Shown: positions 21,579 through 64,000 of the stretch, piece after piece
How positions within the stretch are numbered: position 1 is the first letter of the stretch
How the letters are laid out: the number at the start of each line of letters is the position of its first letter
Assembly: GCF_030463535.1 (NCBI RefSeq)
Contig: NC_132894.1
Span: forward strand, 28,416,625 to 28,480,624
Source: Salminus brasiliensis
Taxonomy: Eukaryota; Chordata; Actinopteri; Characiformes; Bryconidae
DNA: 64,000 nucleotides
Direction: 5' to 3'
Made by a program: the position numbers and the translations under genes
The notes under the pieces: model-generated
Databases searched by the model: none
The model's input: only the letters and a program-made list of their open reading frames with translations
What the model was told of the DNA's origin: nothing

Positions 21579-22369
21579 GGCGTCTTCGTGTTTGGTCTTA
21601 CATATGAGACAAAGTGAACTTTAAAAGAAGTGTTTTCACTCTAAATGTTTAATGTCCTCACAGAGATTCAACACATTGCCCTGTCTCTGTGCAGGCATAA
21701 AACTGTCTTCTTTGCTGACGTGCACTGATTTGCAATTATTTTTATTTATTTTTAATATGTTAATTTATTGGAGTATGTGAATGTTAGATATAAATGAATC
21801 TATGTAGAATTATTTGTTGAAATGACTTGGTTTAAGGTTCAAACCGGTTAGGACATGTGAAGGACACAGCTCAGCTTCAACTTCAGCTTTGTGTCGCTGT
21901 ATAGGAGTGTATTCGACATTTTCCATTTGTCGTGCATCACTGTTGTAGCCAACTCTAGACGGAAAATAAGGCTGTTAAAATTCTTATTTATTATTATTAT
22001 TTTTTTTTTTTACATTTAACAATTCAAAAAAGAAAAAAAAACAACCTGAACCAATCAAATCTGCTCTGGTTATTTACATGAGACATGACATGGGCAGTGC
22101 CCCCCATTGTGACGTAAGTAAAACGTCACAATACTAAGAAACAAGGCCCACAACATCAACACCAGGGAGGTTTTCCACCGCGTAGCATTTCTCCCAAAGT
22201 CCGGCAAAGTTCGCTTAAAGAAAAGACTTCTGGCACTTTGAGAAACCCTGTAGTTTCAGCAACAACACCACCATCAACAACACGAGGTTTAGCGAGCGTT
22301 TAGAGTAATGAAAAAGCACAGCCGGACTTCACAAACGGAGAAGAACCCAACTGCCGAGGCGGACTTGCG

Positions 22370-22415
22370 GTGCGTTCTCGCGAGACTACGCTACTAGTGT
22401 CCGTTCTCGCGACAC
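22370..22415 (+). promoter_or_regulatory. btbd10 core promoter with TCTCGCGAGA motif
   Basis: The perfect palindrome TCTCGCGAGA lies at 22376-22385, and a second, near-match TCTCGCGACA follows at about 22405-22414. This motif marks many vertebrate CpG-island promoters and is bound by BANP (and reported for ZBTB33). It sits about 170-200 bases before the exon 1 donor of btbd10 in a CpG-rich stretch, so it probably drives that gene. The exact start site is not visible. Confidence 0.65.
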
Positions 22416-22419
22416 TTGG

Positions 22420-22584
22420 CTGTGTTGTTCTCTGGCTGTGCTCCTGCGGCGGCGCAGGAACGATTTCGCTTTTTTGGAAAATGCGGAGACATCTCTGGAA
22501 TTTCGCCTAATTCCTGTGCCTCGGTGCTCTAAATCTTGCAGAACAGTGCTCTTTGCCAACAGCAGTCCTTATGACGGCGTAGAG
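22420..22584 (+). other. btbd10: btbd10 probable 5' non-coding exon 1
   Basis: A GC-rich exon ends with GTAGAG followed by the donor GTAAGG at 22585. Joining it to the next exon (26053) in the frame used by the protein meets in-frame stop codons, so it is best read as 5' untranslated. The 5' edge is estimated from the promoter motif. Confidence 0.55.
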
Positions 22585-31056
<8,472 letters not shown>

Positions 31057-32459: not shown

Positions 32460-42922
<10,463 letters not shown>

Positions 42923-43816: not shown

Positions 43817-45729
43817 CTGTGGGCGGGACAAGTTAAGACAAGAATTAACATAACTCATAACTTTGAGATCCTGCTGGTGATAATGATGATGGAAGGATTT
43901 ACGTGAAGATACAGAAGCAGCACATATGTGCCAATTAACATCGCCTCAAATGACAGTAAACGCATAATTTGTGATGACCTGACACCACCCAGAACAGTCT
44001 GTTGCATATGGGATGGAACAACTGTGCAGTAAGAAAGACCAGGAGCTGTATATCACCAAACTCAATAATGCACATTGATATTCCTCACCTTCTTTCATAG
44101 ACTTTTAGAAGCTAATTCTGTTACGGAAGGCCTGTTTCCCTAGGCTGTGAACGTCTCTATTTAACGGCTTATGCTTTTCACTATCGGATTGAAGGTTTAA
44201 AAAAAGGTGTGTGAAGAGCAGAAGACCTCAGGTTACATTCGGTTGTCAGAATCAGACCAGCACTAATGCTCTCCAGCAGCCGCCAGTCGCCTTGTAATTA
44301 GATTCTCCAGTGACCTATTTTTCCCCTTACTACATTGCTACCTTGCAGCCCATCCAGATGACTCTAGAGTTTCAGGGTGTCAGAACGCTGAATCAGACAC
44401 GCCGCGTAACACTCTCAGCCTCCTCGCGGTTCACCACGGGTCTAAAAGGAGCATGTTCTACACACACACACCTCTTGTCTGGGAATCATTTTTGAAGAGC
44501 TCAAAGCAGCTGGCCTAATTTTGCCATTGCAACCCATTTTAAGGAGCTTCAGAAGCTTCAGAGCATTTTTTACAAATGCTTAAATGCTTTTCTTTACTAA
44601 AAATGATTAACATAAAATCCAACAGTTTATGTTTTTTACATCATTTGAAAATCCTTACTGTGGCCTTACTTTTATGAGGACCATTTGTTAGATGGACCAA
44701 CAGAAATGTTCCAAAAATGACTTTAAAATCTGAATATGAGAAAGTAGTTTGAGTTGTTAGGCAACAAAGTATTTGCTTTAAAGGTGACCAGGGTATTTAT
44801 ATTGCTTTGTTTGATAATTTGTTAAGTTCCTGTTGCTTCCCATAAGCAGAGCTTTCAGAGTAGAGATTTCCCATTCCGAGGCGAAATAACAGGGTTGTAA
44901 ACAGGCTTGTTAAACAGCATCTGAGCATCCACTGGACTATCAGACGACACACAGTGCTTTCCAAAAGGCATTTCTAATTCTGGGCCTACTGAGAAAATGA
45001 GCAGATGGAGAATAAAAGGAGGAAGACGGAGAGGATGTGTGGGTCAAATTATCCATCATTACATCCCTGCTAGCAGATGACACAAAGACAAAGTAGGCTG
45101 GTTCCATTAGCAGCCAGCCAGGGTGAATTTCAGTCAAAATGGAAGAAGGCAAAAAGCAAGGGCTCTATTAAAAGAAGAAAAGAAAAAAAGAAAAGAGGGC
45201 TGGGTGAATGTAGGTCATCTGGATAAGCCTGTTAACACACCGTGCTTAAATGAGTCAGCAATGCTTTAACCACCTTCTCTTGTCTTTTCTCTCAGTGGCC
45301 TCAAGGACCAACCAGTTCAGCTGACCAGACTAAACAAGCTGGTACTGTAGACTAAAAAAAACCCACGGAAACACACGACAGTCCTATTTCATGTTCTGTA
45401 TATTATTTTCTATTTATTGGCACCCCTGCTATAGCTATACACTGAAAGAGAAGAAGGTAGTACAATTTATATCTACTCCCTTGTGAGTGCCTTGAGGTGT
45501 GTGTCCAATGATTTACACTGGTAAATGAATATACTGTACACCAGCAAAGTCAATAATATTATTCAATAATTACAGCAGGGTCCAAAAGTGTTAAATCGAA
45601 AAACATTTATCCTATGGTCAACATTAACATTGTGCTCATGGCCACTTTAAACACATAATCGTTAACCTAAGCTGTTGACTATGGGCTACATTTGTGGGAG
45701 ATACGCATTGTGTTGCCAAGGGTACATAC
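43817..45729 (-). other. bmal1 5' intron, no other exon seen
   Basis: Mostly single-copy-looking. There is a GC-balanced block near 44230-44480, and a pyrimidine/purine-biased AG stretch near 45170-45195. Confidence 0.4.
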
Positions 45730-50191: not shown

Positions 50192-51099
50192 TCTTAGCCC
50201 TCACCAGTCTACTGAGGGCATTAATCTTGCTCCCAGTCCTGCTTCTCTTCACTCAGCGCAGGCCTGTGCTTTTACCCTACCCCTCAGGCCCACTTGAGGA
50301 GGATGTGTGAGCTAAGAAGGCTGATGTATGTGAGGATACATCACAGGCTGCTCTCTCAGAGGTATCCAGCACTTCCCTGGAAGCACTGCATGACACACTG
50401 CTGTGTAGAAGGGGGGCAAATGAGGGGAGCAGGGGATGAGGACTGACCTCTTAAAGCCACCACAACGAGCCTTAAGGCCACCAAGCCTGAAGGGCTGTGT
50501 ATTAGCCTACTGCACCACTACGTGTCGTGCATACACACATAGCTACACACATGCATCCAGCCAATATCGCTGTATTATTATTATTATTTTTTTTTTTACC
50601 AAATACAGATCGATTTCAAGGCATTCTCGTACGTTTCATTACATTAGACAGGATGAAATACCACGCAACAGATCACACGAAGGACTTCAGATAGGGGCGA
50701 CACACCGTCTGCTGTTGTGCTCAGTGTAGTCCAATGGCTGCCTGTGCTCAACACAGAGACAACGCTGCGAACCCCTGTGCGCTTTATATGATGCTTGGAC
50801 TCAATAAGCGTAGAAATGAATGAGTAGCAGTCGTGCTGTGAGTACAGACCCGTTACAGTCATACATTACAGTGCCGTTTCATTCAAACCAGGTCTCAAGG
50901 CAAGTTAGCCAGGTCCCACTGTTTCCACTGAAGGGCTTTAAAAGTTATGCAGTAACGCAGTCAGGTTACGAGCCTGGCGCTACTCCTCTCCGCCCCGCTG
51001 ACTACAAAACAAGACATTAGGCTAAATTGGGCTAATGTAGCTAAATACGCCACAGCCAGACAGTGCTCAACACCTAGGAGCCTAAAAGGTCGTACTTAC

Positions 51100-51165
51100 T
51101 TGAAGAAGGCAGGGAAGCACATGCACGCTCACGCTAACATGGACGGCGCGGCGACTGTACATATT
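51100..51165 (-). other. bmal1: bmal1 probable first exon (non-coding)
   Basis: On the gene strand a strong donor, CTTCAA|GTAAGTACG, ends the exon at 51100. The 5' edge is assumed to lie just below the twin RORE sites. No coding frame is expected, because the ATG exon is far downstream. Confidence 0.55.
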
Positions 51166-51345
51166 TACACTGACCCACTTTCCCTCTCCGCTGCTAATAA
51201 GCAGCGCGCCACTAACCTACTTATCGGACCAATGGCGTTCGACCGAACCGGCGGCGTTGCCGTTTGCAGCCAATCGCAGCCACGCCTCATCTGCGCGACA
51301 GCCAATGGCAAGGCGAGGAGCCCATAAGGCGACCAATGGAATTAC
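51166..51345 (-). promoter_or_regulatory. bmal1 promoter: two ROREs and four CCAAT boxes
   Basis: On the gene strand TAAGTAGGTTA (51223-51213) and AAAGTGGGTCA (51181-51171) lie 31 bases apart. Both fit the ROR/REV-ERB response element (A/T)A(A/T)NT(A/G)GGT(C/T)A, the well-known pair that makes mammalian Bmal1 oscillate. Four CCAAT boxes (+ strand 51229, 51270, 51302, 51333), read as ATTGG on the gene strand, suggest NF-Y. The block is GC-rich with many CpGs, unlike its surroundings. Confidence 0.8.
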
Positions 51346-53320
51346 GGAAGATTGTTATTGCTTCCTAAACACAAACAGATCAGTCAGTGAAGGAGCTATT
51401 AGCGCAATATCAGACTGACAAGCGTTGCTCTTATGCTCTTCTGACCCTGGACATATCGACAAACAGAGAGCAGTGGGTTCACTACACAACATCATTAGGG
51501 GGAAATCTTACAGTGTGACTTAGGGAGGGCAGTGTTTCACTTACTGGACAGGTTAGATTTGCCTGGTTTAATTGAGAAACCCAGCTTTGTGAAATGCCCC
51601 CTGGTTTGGACATGGGCCTACCGAGTAGTTACACCGGCCTGTGATCTACAGTGCAGACAGAAGCAGGTTTTGGGGGAAATGGGAGTCTACAATCAGACTG
51701 TCATATTTAATTATTGATTATTGTACTATAACATGCATACCTGGCCTGATTTTCCTGCTGTGTACTACCCACTTCCCATTTACCTATGTACCTATATTTT
51801 TTCGGGTATTATCTCTGCCCCAGAGTAGAAGCTGAATAGTGCATGTATTGATATAATAATATCATAATTGGCACAAGCCTATATTTGTATAATGACAATA
51901 ACGTTATTTTATTGATATAAATGTAAGTAATTATAACAATTCGGCTTTTTTTGTATGTGCGTTTGGATTTAATTTAATATAATTATTTTATAATCATTTA
52001 AATAATTGTATTGTAAAATTAAATACGTTAAAAAAGAATAATAGAGTGAAAATAAGTTATTTACACATACTTTGATTGGGGAACTCAAATTATTAAGGCA
52101 CAGAAGTACTTAAAAGTATAGTTTTTAAAATATTACTGGAGAACACGTCATGATCCTCTTGTATTTTCCGTTGTCTTCTGCATTTTCACCACTAGGGGTC
52201 AACAAAGTAACATGTAAAGTACATCCAATAACTTTATCATCATTCACTGAAGCAGACATAGCTTACAAATTTCATAGATAATAAACAACAAATGAATAAG
52301 TTACAAATCAAAAATTCTAATGCCATTCTGCGGTAAACTTTAAATACTGTGCATTTCAGAGAATATGCTGATTCCTGTTTTGTTTTTTTTTGTTTTTTTT
52401 TACCACATATTACCAAACTGTAGGCCAAAGCACAAGAGTAGGAATAAAGCCATGCCAAGACAGGCTTAATAGAAATGCTGGAGTCAGTTGTATAACATGG
52501 ACCTCGAATCCTCTTGCCTGAACTCATTTCCACAGCGGCCCTGAGCGCCGGATCTCCTACTGCGCCGCACACGAGGGATAAGCATCCAGTCATCCATTGG
52601 CGAGCAGAGCAGCTAAATGAAAGGATTCCGCTCAGACAGGAGAGTAAAGCCAGGATCTCAGCGGCTGTCACATTACTGCCTATCTCCTAGTGCAGGGAAA
52701 AGACAAGGTCATCTGACTTACTTAAGCCCTTTTTTTCCAAGAAACAAAGTGCCAAGAGAATAAAACAGCATGGAGATCAGAGAGAGGATGGAGAGAATGA
52801 ACAGAGTGAAAGGTGAAAAGGTGAAAGAGTGGCATTTGTGCTCTTAGTTAGATATCAGAGATTCTAAGCCTCAGAAACAACAACATTTCTCAAACCTATA
52901 TGGAAAAATACACCATAACAATACTTGAAATCCTTTACACAATATGCAAAAGGGTCACATTTCTGAGGTTTTTGAACAAAAAAAACCCTCAATGATTTAA
53001 GAAGAAATACCACAGTAACACAGTAAAACTTAAAATTGAGTTTAGGTTTAGTTTAATTTCCTGTGATAAACAAAAGTGTTTCAATCCCGGGTATTATTTT
53101 CTCCTTAAAGCCTCTGCTGGAATGGTCTTTATGAGCGAATTTCACTACATGTAAGCTGACACTGCTTTGCGCTGAACTGACATCATAAGACTGTCAACCT
53201 CAACAAAAACCCCAAACAACCATAAATAGTTAACTTTCTTAGAGCACAATCTGAATAGCTGGTGTTCTTACATAATAGTACAGAGCCCATAAAACTGATA
53301 TTGTGATTGTTTTTAATTAA
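51346..53320. other. Upstream of bmal1; no gene seen
   Basis: AT-rich. A - strand frame at 52671-52240 (143 codons, several hydrophobic stretches) has no domain or splice context that I recognise. 52495-52680 is less AT-rich than its surroundings and may be a conserved element. Confidence 0.35.
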
Positions 53321-53324
53321 AGGT

Positions 53325-54418
53325 GTCCAGAAGACAATATATTAAGGCCATCAGATAATATATTGAGGACACAAAATAATATATTGAAGCCACCAGATAA
53401 TATATTGAGGCCACAAGATAATATGTTGAGGCCACCAGATAATATATTGAGGACCCAAAATTATATATTAAGGTTATAAGATAATATATTGAGATCTCCA
53501 GACAGTATATTGAGGATACAAAATAATATGTTGAGGTTACAAAATAATATATTGAAGCCACCAGATAATATATTGAGGCCACCAGATAATATATTGAGGA
53601 CCTAAAATTATATATTAAGGTTATAAGGTAATATATTGAGGCCACCAGATAATATATTGAGGACCCAAAATTATATATTAAGATTATAAGGTAATATATT
53701 GAGGCCACCAGATAATATATTGAGGACCCAAAATTATATATTAAGATTATAAGGTAATATATTGAGGCCACCAGATAATATATTGAGGACCCAAAATTAT
53801 ATATTAAGGTTATAAGGTAATATATTGAGGCCACCAGATAATATATTGAGGACCCAAAATTATATATTAAGATTATAAGGTAATATATTGAGGCCACCAG
53901 ATAATATATTGAGTACCCAAAATTATATATTAAGGTTATAAGATAATATGTTGAGGCCACCAGATAATATATTGAGGACCCAAAATTATATATTAAGTTT
54001 ATAAGATAATATGTTGAGGCCACCAGATAATATATTGAGGACCTAAAATTATATATTAAGTTTATAAGATAATATATTGAGGACACAAGATAATACAATG
54101 AGGTTGCAAAATAATATATTGAAGCCACCAGATAATATATTGAGGCCACAAGATAATATATTAAAGCCACCAGATAATATCTTGAAGCCACCAGATAATA
54201 TATTGAGGACTCAAAATGATACATTAAGGTTACAAAATAATATCTTGAGGTCACCAGATAATATATTGAGGACACAAGATAATACAATGAGGTTGCAAAA
54301 TAATATATTAAAGCCACCAGATAATATATTGAGGCCACCAGATAATATATTGAGGACCCAAAATGATATATTAAGGTTACAAGATAATATTTTGAGACCA
54401 CCAGATAATATATTGAGC
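53325..54418. repeat. Minisatellite, 21-bp unit with 63-bp higher-order pattern
   Basis: Monomers such as aggccaccagataatatattg, aggacccaaaattatatatta and aggttataaggtaatatattg follow one another. The 21-bp length (7 codons) keeps both strands open, so a 362-codon - strand frame and a 123-codon + strand frame arise without being genes. Confidence 0.93.
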
Positions 54419-54721
54419 CCTAATCCACAGCTATCCCTTTACCACTAGGTTTTGATGAGCTGTTGGATGTGTGAAATTCACATTATTGAAAAGCATAATA
54501 AGATCTGGAGCCTTTGGTCTCTCTGTGGTCATAGAAAGGCCATCACACCCTCAGGAGCGTGGGCTCTTTAAATCAGCTCTTAAAAATGTTTAGAGTCTAT
54601 CTGATGTTTATGTCCTCCAGCTCTGTTGTGTCCCATGATTATACACGTCACATGGAGGTGTCAGCTCTGAAGGTATGAGGTGCTAGCGGTCAATGCTGTT
54701 CTCTCTTTCCCTAGAGAACAC

Positions 54722-56629: not shown

Positions 56630-57770
56630 TTGTCAAGTCAAGTCAAGTCAGATTTATTTGTGTAGCGCTTTTTACAACTGTTGTCGTCACAAAGCAGCTT
56701 TACATAATTAGTACTTAATAAAGGACAGAGACAGAGAAGAAAGAAGAAATAGCGTGAAGGATCAAAGACCCCCTGTGAGCAAGCCAAACGGCAACAGTGG
56801 CAAGGAAAAACTCCCTCAAAGCTGGAGGAAGAAACCTTGGGAGGAACCAAGACTCACAAGGGGGACCCATCATCATCTGGTCAGAACTATTTAAACATTA
56901 ATGATAAAAATTACCAAACCAGATACAACAGAAAGTTAATAGTGGTGATATTAATATTGGCAGACAGCCACAAGTCCATCTAGGTTTCAACACGGCCACC
57001 AAACAGGCAGCAGCGGCAGGCGGGGGTGCCGCCGGTCCGCCATGGGTGGTGGCGGGTGGGGGTGCCCGCTGGCCGGACTGGTAGGTGGCAACTGGTTTGA
57101 CGCAGGTAGAGGGGCTCTCAGCATCCGCATCAGAGTGTGTCTGACGACTCCGGCAGGTCTGATTATAACAGCCTAATTAAAAGGAGAGAGCTAGAAGGTA
57201 ACACGGACACGGGAGCACCCTGAAAACACCAGCATCTATCTGCTCCACCGTCAACAAACCTGAGTGATCGCGTGTAGACAGCGAGACGACAGCTCCAGCA
57301 TCTCAGTGTACTACAATTCCCTGGGTCCGCGAACCCCTGGACCTGCAACCCTCATCTAAGAAACATTAATTACCAAAAGCTAAACTGAACATATAAGTTT
57401 TCAGCTTAGATTTAAAGATTGAGACTGTGTCTGAGTCCCGAACATTATCTGGAAGGTTATTCCAGAGTTGGGGGCCTTATAGGAAAAGGCTCTTCCCCCT
57501 GCTGAGGTTTTCTGAATTTTGGGAACGAGTAAGAGGCCAGCACCCTGAGATCTAAGTAGTCTTGATGCTTCGTAGTATACAATAAGATCCCACAGGTACT
57601 CAGGAGCGAGGCCATGTAGGGCCTTCTATGTTAATAGAAGAATTTAACTGGGAGCCAATGAAGTGCTGATAGAACTGGACTGATATGGTCAAATGTTCTA
57701 GTTTTAGTAAGGACCCTGGCTGCAGCATTTTGCACCAGCTGAAGTTTATTGAGGTTTCCGCTGGAACAAC
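56630..57770 (+). repeat. Composite interspersed repeat
   Basis: It begins with gtcaa pentamers and runs through 'gatttatttgtgtagcgctt', 'tttacaactgttgtcgtcac', 'gggaggaaccaagactcaca', 'ggttattccagagttggggg' and 'tgcagcattttgcaccagct'. This text recurs throughout teleost genomes. I cannot assign the class, and no intact frame is present. Confidence 0.6.
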
Positions 57771-57907
57771 CTGACTGTAGTGCATTAGGCCTGACAGTAG
57801 TGCATTAAACCTGACTGTAGTGCATTAAACCTGACAGTATTGCATTAAACCTGACTGTAGTGCATTACCTGACAGTAGTGCATTAAACCTGACAGTAGTG
57901 CAGTAAT
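57769..57907. repeat. Minisatellite, about 21-bp unit (cctgacagtagtgcattaaa)
   Basis: About six to seven copies alternating 'gactgtag' and 'gacagtag'. Confidence 0.9.
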
Positions 57908-58232
57908 CAATTGTGATTGGTTGGATTGTGATTGGTTAGCCTGGGATTTGTTAGCTTGTGATTGGTTGGATTGTGATAAATTAATCTGGGATTTGTTATC
58001 TTGTGATTGGTTGGTTTGTGATGGGTTAGCCTGAGATGTGTTAGCTTGTGATTGGTGGATTGTGATGGGTTAGCCTGGGATTTGTTAGCTTGCGATTGGT
58101 TGGATTGTGATAAATTAATCTGGGATTTGTTATCTTGTGATTGGTTGGATTGTGATAAATTAATCTGGGATTTGTTATCTTGTGATTGGTTGGTTTGTGA
58201 TAGGTTATCCTGAGATTTGTTAGCTTGTGATA
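57908..58232. repeat. Minisatellite, about 51-bp unit (ttgtgattggttgg...)
   Basis: The half-units 'ttgtgattggttggattgtg' and 'taatctgggatttgttatct' alternate. The - strand frame of 17-residue repeats is a consequence of the unit length. Confidence 0.88.
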
Positions 58233-61830: not shown

Positions 61831-62215
61831 GATACAAAAGTAACCATCAAGAAACACTACTGCAACCACATAAGAACTTAATAGTAATCTCTGGGTATAC
61901 ACAAGCAACCACATAGCAACTCATAGCAACCCCATGGCAATCACTTAGCAACTACCTAGCAACCCCACAGCAACCATCTGGGGTACAAAAGCAACCATCA
62001 AGCAACACCATAGCAACTACCTAGCAACCCTGGAGTAAAACACCTGGTATACAATAAAAAACACCTAGAAACACAACACCCAGCAACCATCAAGCAACAC
62101 CATAGCAACTACCTAGCAACCCTGGAGTGAAACACCTGGTATACAATAAGAAACACCTAGAAACACAACACCCAGCAACCACTTGGCAATTACCTAACAA
62201 TCCCATAGCAACCAC
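61831..62215. repeat. Minisatellite of 'agcaacca/tagcaacta' words, block 1
   Basis: 'catagcaaccacctagcaac'-type words of about 10-11 bp recur dozens of times. A longer repeated sub-block ('accatcaagcaacaccatag', then 'caactacctagcaaccctgg') occurs twice at about 61990 and 62085. Confidence 0.85.
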
Positions 62216-63514
62216 TTTGGATAAAATCTTTCAAAACATAATTTGAATCTGGCAGTCGTTCTTTAGATTGTATCAAATTGCCATGAATGCCATGATCATC
62301 ATTTTGCGCGAGAGTGGCAATATATAAGTCTTAAAAACACAGTAACAAAAAAGCAGTGTAATTGTCATAAACCCCACAAAGGGTGAAATTAGTCATATAA
62401 AAATAAATTTTGACTAACTGATACAGTCATAAATGGATTTCAGAGAAAATAAAAGTCAAGAAAAGGGTGAGATATTGTTTCTTTAAACTTCTTGTTATTG
62501 CCAATATATTGAAGTGTTCAGTGGATCATCTGAAAAGAACTTTTAACATCTAGCTTAAGATATTCAAAACTGTTACTGAATAACAGTAGTTACTCTGGGT
62601 TATGAAGGTTAAATGTGGCCTCTGAAAGACCTCTCTCCCTGAGGACCATTACTGCGAAACCAAAGAGGTGGTATCATAAAACATAGTTCATGTGACAGAG
62701 TGACTACACTGCCTATCAAGAGATGATTCTGAAGCTTGTAAACAGTCAGGGTCTCCATATCTGCTGAAGGGTTGAACAGATAATTAAAGCCTGTGTCAGT
62801 AAGAGATCCAGAAAGCTGCAGCTGCATCGTACAACACACCCTGTCCTACAGAGAGAGACCTTCAGTGGTGGAGGGGCTTCAGTCAACTTAATCTGCTTTG
62901 ATAAGTAAAAGTTTCTTATATCCAGAATATTATTACGTATTTATTGCCTTAGCAGGCTCTTCCACCGGAGGCAGCATTTGAAATGCAACATTGCTCATTT
63001 ACATAATTGCTAGTCAAACTGAATAATTCCAGCAGAGCTCCGTGCCTGGAGGACATCTCCCCCCGAGTTAGTGAGTCAGTGGCCCACTTTGGGTACTCGG
63101 AGTAACTTATGCTCACAAGTTTTATCGCATCTCACTACCAAGATGCCAATTACAGGGGTGTTTTCGGGGGTCTGACCTTATAATTAAGACTCTTCAACCC
63201 CCTGAAGGAAGTAAATAACAAAGGTTGGGTGGGTCGACAAAATGACAAGCAATGAATCATGTTAATAGTAAACAGTGAAAGATGTTTCCCAAGGTGTTTG
63301 TGAGAAACACACAGCATGATTGTGAACACCCCTACAGTGGACTTTACCACTCATTACACAGCGCACAGGTCAGTGTGTAGGTAAAGCTGTTTGCGTATAA
63401 GGTATTTAGCTAAACAGTGGAATTATGCTAAATTTAGCATAAAGTCATTGAGCTAACTAGCAACTAAGTTGCTAGCTACCTCTAAAGCATGGGGTGCCCA
63501 AAGTGCAATCAGGT
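62216..63514. other. Intergenic; possible conserved block 62930-63130
   Basis: No gene is recognised. 62930-63130 looks single-copy and contains octamer/homeodomain-like words such as atttacataattgc. Confidence 0.35.
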
Positions 63515-64000
63515 CTTTAAAACATCACAACAACCATCTAGGACACAAAAGCAACCATCAAGCAACCCAATAGCAACCACCTAGGAATCCCTATAGTGAA
63601 CATACATTAGCAACCACCTTGTAACTACATAGTAACCCCATAGCAACCACTTAGCAACTATTGAGTAACCCCATAGCAACTAATTGTGGGATACAAAAGC
63701 AACCATCAAGCAATACTATAGCAATCACATAGAAACCCAAAGCAAACACCTGGTGTACAGTAGCAACTACATAGTAACCTCATAGCAACCACCTAGCAAA
63801 ACCATAGCAAGCACTTAGCAACAACCTAGCAACCACCTGGTCATACTATTGCAACCATCTAGCACCCTTATAAACATCTGGGATACCACCTAGAAACCCC
63901 ATAGCAAACCTGTGGTATACAATAGCTACCCCTTAGAAATTACCTAGCAACCATCTAGCAGCGCAATGGCAACCACATAAGAACCCCTCAGCAATACGTG
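63515..64000. repeat. Minisatellite of 'agcaacca' words, block 2, runs off the window
   Basis: Same wording as 61831-62215, separated from it by 1.3 kb of ordinary DNA. It continues to the last base. Confidence 0.85.

Follow-up and report, generated by a model that had tools for sequence, protein, structure and literature searches.

A mammal-like RORE pair at the candidate bmal1b promoter of a characiform fish

The block around 51 kb of the analysed stretch of DNA (64 kb, hereafter the window) is very probably the proximal promoter of the bmal1b gene of a characiform fish, in which the RORE pair of vertebrate Bmal1 genes would have been retained by descent. This reading is based on the identity of the gene, the exact matches at both sites, a run of 14 bases identical to mouse, an order of sites known from goat and an 11-mer known from medaka, and likewise on a splice acceptor, a donor unique on its strand and a CpG-dense block, which together suggest an upstream exon. 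Counted against it are the flanks of the downstream site, which do not exceed chance level, the main text of the medaka study, in which GGTTA does not appear, and a total identity of 18/23 to a mouse primer, which also arises in shuffled windows. ROR and REV-ERB would be expected to bind and compete at the pair and to confer a rhythm through it. The pair is a familiar kind of control element, from a clock loop that is already known, in one more fish gene. The sequence-only reading that had singled out the region is supported in its facts and largely in its interpretation.

Tblastn, a homologue search and a tree all identified the gene as the bmal1b of a characiform fish. With human BMAL1 as the query, tblastn placed its coding exons on the minus strand (the bmal1 strand in what follows), from 42922 to 32463. 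The exon borders were fitted to this human sequence, and the exon model is poor near 33.47-33.62 kb; once joined, the exons encode a product with 81% identity to the human query. The closest relatives in the database were the arntl1b proteins of the characiforms Colossoma macropomum (98%), Pygocentrus nattereri (97%) and Astyanax mexicanus (97%), and BMAL1 chains headed the PDB matches. The tree, of 26 proteins, paired the window protein with Astyanax 1b (support 97/92), and it split the proteins labelled 1a from those labelled 1b with moderate support (80/89). The earlier naming of the gene as bmal1 was borne out, with the correction that it is the 1b duplicate.

A gene with a BTB_3 domain lies at 26.9-28.8 kb on the plus strand, opposite to bmal1b, with BTB_3 matches in the open frames 26873-27181 and 28521-28835. 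It fits BTBD10, the neighbour of BMAL1 in human, which adds to the case for the reading given above. The region 22141-22980, which includes the most CpG-dense 300 bp of the window (from 22321), is possibly the promoter of this plus-strand gene. The features of bmal1b and of the 51-kb block are collected in Table 1.

Table 1. Features of bmal1b and its candidate promoter, in positions of the window
Feature	Position	Strand	Basis or remark
bmal1b coding exons	32460..42922	-	ATG at 42922, stop codon ending 32460
Candidate non-coding exon 1	51100..51170	-	donor CAA/GTAAGT, ~70 bp past RORE2
CpG-dense promoter block (candidate)	51121..51420	.	25 CpG in 300 bp, o/e 1.19
RORE2 AAAGTGGGTCA	51171..51181	-	exact sequence match; fits published consensus [AT]A[AT]NT[AG]GGTCA
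Spacer, 31 bp, RORE1 to RORE2	51182..51212	-	read directly from sequence
RORE1 3' flank GTGGCGCGCT	51203..51212	-	7/10 identical to mouse GTGGTGCGAC
RORE1 TAAGTAGGTTA, GGTTA variant	51213..51223	-	exact sequence match; 14-nt run common to mouse primer
Four CCAAT boxes	51229..51337 (starts 51229, 51270, 51302, 51333)	+	ATTGG on bmal1 strand; candidate NF-Y sites

The two RORE-type sites that had been reported on the bmal1 strand, 31 bases apart, were both found as 11-mers exactly where they had been placed. They share the strand, with 42 bp from start to start, and on the bmal1 strand the GGTTA site lies upstream and the GGTCA site downstream. Each of them occurs once in the 64-kb window, where shuffling predicts 0.09 copies of AAAGTGGGTCA and 0.02 copies of TAAGTAGGTTA. 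The core of RORE1 falls outside the strict GGTCA consensus, as do those of the upstream sites of goat and mouse. The spacer holds a small inverted repeat, GCTGCT-TATT-AGCAGC (51190-51205, minus strand). An extra half-site on the bmal1 strand, TCCAGGGTCA (51442-51451), resembles the RORE-like element of medaka, TCCACGGGTCA, minus one base, and may be due to chance. Two other matches to the RORE consensus, AAAATAGGTCA (44311-44321, minus strand) and AATGTAGGTCA (45207-45217, plus strand), are located downstream of candidate exon 1 and upstream of the exon with the ATG; the number of such matches in the window does not exceed chance.

The sequence immediately before the ATG, CCCACAG/ACAATCTAATG, is by its appearance a splice acceptor, so that transcription probably starts in an upstream exon; this suggests that bmal1b has an upstream non-coding exon. 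A donor, CAAGTAAGT, starts at 51102 on the minus strand, where the window contains no second copy of it; this would place the end of a candidate exon 1 at 51100. The first-exon donor claimed earlier beside the sites, CAA/GTAAGT, proved to be a plausible candidate in a CpG-dense block. With overlapping neighbours merged, this block ranked second among 3185 sliding windows, after 22321-22620 (26 CpG). The donor and the CpG-dense block together mark a candidate promoter. By goat and mouse numbering, the transcription start would be expected at ~51.17-51.25 kb, and the candidate exon may have its 5' end inside the RORE sites or farther upstream.

All four CCAAT boxes are located just upstream of RORE1. 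A link of NF-Y to Bmal1 has been published; none was recognised among the literature matches listed. The cluster was not adopted as strong evidence, since 37 of 400 simulated windows also contained at least four same-strand CCAAT boxes in 120 bp. Neither strand of 51050-51450 contained an E-box (CACGT[GT]), D-box, TATA, GC-box or CRE pattern, and the loose E-box CANNTG occurred there at two places. The search against Rfam gave zero matches in the window at gathering scores. A minisatellite with a 63-bp unit in 16.9 copies (53355-54417) starts ~2 kb upstream of the promoter and is crossed by an open frame of 368 aa (53313-54419, minus strand) without a Pfam match, which is probably spurious. 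Further upstream there are more tandem arrays (57768-58231 and 61900-63836), one of them with a 45-bp unit that includes ATTGG.

The closest known system is the RRE/RORE pair in the 5'-UTR of mammalian Bmal1, described in mouse, human, goat and reindeer. The mouse 5' UTR carries two RREs that are highly conserved among mammals (Abe et al., PMC9399252). Deletion or mutation of the mammalian pair abolished the reporter rhythm (PMC9399252, PMC2265523) or led to its profound loss (PMC11613641), and mutants without the two RREs lacked rhythmic Bmal1 transcription, yet had apparently normal rhythms (PMC9399252). In goat BMAL1, AAGTAGGTTA spans +25 to +34 and AAGTAGGTCA spans +61 to +70, and a third site has been proposed at -451 (PMC9035992). 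The order, the orientation and the pattern of GGTTA followed by GGTCA are equal to those of bmal1b, which agrees with the mammal-like arrangement, GGTTA variant included, proposed earlier from the sequence; the goat sites are 36 bp apart from start to start versus 42 bp in bmal1b, i.e., the spacing is 6 bp longer here.

Homology beyond the core was judged on short published oligos. Within this scope, the likeness to mouse extended to the flank of RORE1, and the flanks of RORE2 matched human at chance level. The mouse sequence used was a ChIP primer labelled Bmal1 -53 (PMC6164026), in which the GGTTA site and its 3' flank are like those of bmal1b. The 14 contiguous bases AAGTAGGTTAGTGG (51222-51209) are identical to this primer; no run of such length was found in 300 simulated windows, where the longest run was 13, in four of them. 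The 7/10 identity of the 3' flank was equalled at 270 of 127980 window positions (0.0021). When the entire 23-nt primer was placed without gaps, RORE1 was its best place in the window (18/23), and this total was rejected as decisive since two of 40 shuffled windows equalled it; for this reason, the evidential weight is carried by the contiguous run and its location. Taken together, these comparisons give good support to a common descent of the upstream site.

At the downstream site, homology would rest on the core, the order and the place. The human Bmal1 probe has the core AAAGTAGGTCA versus AAAGTGGGTCA in bmal1b, with unrelated flanks: the flanks of RORE2 matched it at 6/15 positions, a value equalled at 11% of window positions, and the whole probe reached 16/26 at RORE2 versus 17/26 at its best place, 16405. 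RORE2 was likewise absent from the four best window places listed for the chicken primer and for the human CLOCK oligo. The RevRE in intron 1 of human CLOCK, which reportedly made a reporter responsive to REV-ERB, has a core, AAAGTGGGTCA, identical to RORE2; it differs in being a single site in the intron of another gene, with longer flanks unlike those of RORE2 (PMC3066191). The same core AAAGTGGGTCA is also used in an EMSA oligo for RORbeta (PMC13419597). In a chicken study, GAAAGTAGGTCAGGGACGGG served as a BMAL1 RT-PCR primer (PMC10816401), which suggests that the chicken RORE2 is transcribed.

Control of fish bmal1 by ROR/REV-ERB is already in print (PMC5553892, PMC3585402). The medaka bmal1a promoter carries a RORE whose 11-mer is identical to RORE2 of bmal1b, and its second element is the RORE-like sequence mentioned above; the medaka gene is labelled as the other duplicate, 1a (PMC5553892). 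Should the label 1a be correct, both teleost duplicates would have the RORE2 11-mer. In zebrafish, arntl1a and arntl1b, which belong to the same gene family, both have circadian phases, and a network analysis put arntl under the control of nr1d1 and rorab through the RRE, as predicted by genome-wide promoter analysis (PMC3585402). Among the matches listed, titles and the beginnings of abstracts did not name a twin-RORE pair in a characin. Conservation of the feedback loop, which had been read directly from the arrangement of the sites, is something we infer here, and the medaka reporter and the zebrafish network point the same way.

The medaka data also bear on the possibility that only RORE2 works and has been kept by selection, the GGTTA site of fishes being a relic or a weak auxiliary element. 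We consider this rather unlikely. In its favour, medaka bmal1a has the identical RORE2, which agrees with the strict consensus, RORE1 deviates from GGTCA, and the main text of the medaka bmal1a paper has zero occurrences of GGTTA (PMC5553892). However, it is RORE1 and not RORE2 that has the mouse-like flank and the 14-base run, and their preservation is unexpected for a decaying site.

Alternatively, the sites may be real and also serve other half-site receptors, e.g., RORd1, an ROR that teleosts have retained and mammals lack and that has retinoid-metabolite ligands, so that the input in fish may exceed the mammalian ROR/REV-ERB loop. RORd1 raised the activity of the medaka bmal1a promoter-reporter in HEK293 cells, and in medaka eyes the peaks of rord1 and bmal1a both fall at ZT7 (PMC5553892). 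Such input is compatible with control by REV-ERB and does not exclude it, while the zebrafish network names nr1d1 and rorab as regulators acting through the RRE (PMC3585402); we regard this extension of the loop as improbable.

Matches to the motif were rejected as sufficient proof of a function, as WAWNTRGGTYA was found four times in the window versus 3.80 expected, and at least four matches occurred in 49 of 100 shuffles. That the GC-rich promoter matches a short, degenerate motif by chance at both sites, with no role for ROR/REV-ERB, is nevertheless highly improbable: this count, a same-strand pair within 60 bp in six of 600 simulated windows (first-order Markov) and the chance-level flanks of RORE2 would agree with it, but the sites are located at the expected promoter, their order is that of goat, the mouse-identical run did not arise in simulation and medaka bmal1a has the identical 11-mer.

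Retention of the vertebrate pair by descent at the bmal1b promoter is thus the reading that we prefer, and it can be extended to the inequality of the two sites. Although it departs from the consensus, the GGTTA site has the better conserved surroundings of the two, as far as short oligos were compared. We hold it possible, as a tentative proposal, that the unequal pair (GGTTA with the GTGGNGCG tail, then GGTCA) would be an ancestral module of bony vertebrates kept through the teleost genome duplication, in which the weak GGTTA site would be under constraint and would adjust the balance between ROR and REV-ERB, instead of being a degraded copy. If the unequal pair has indeed survived since ray-finned fish and tetrapods split, this would point to some importance of the weak site; otherwise, the bmal1b pair confirms the expected conservation. 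With the pair, the secondary clock loop of fish can be set against that of mammals in a comparison that is short and open to testing.
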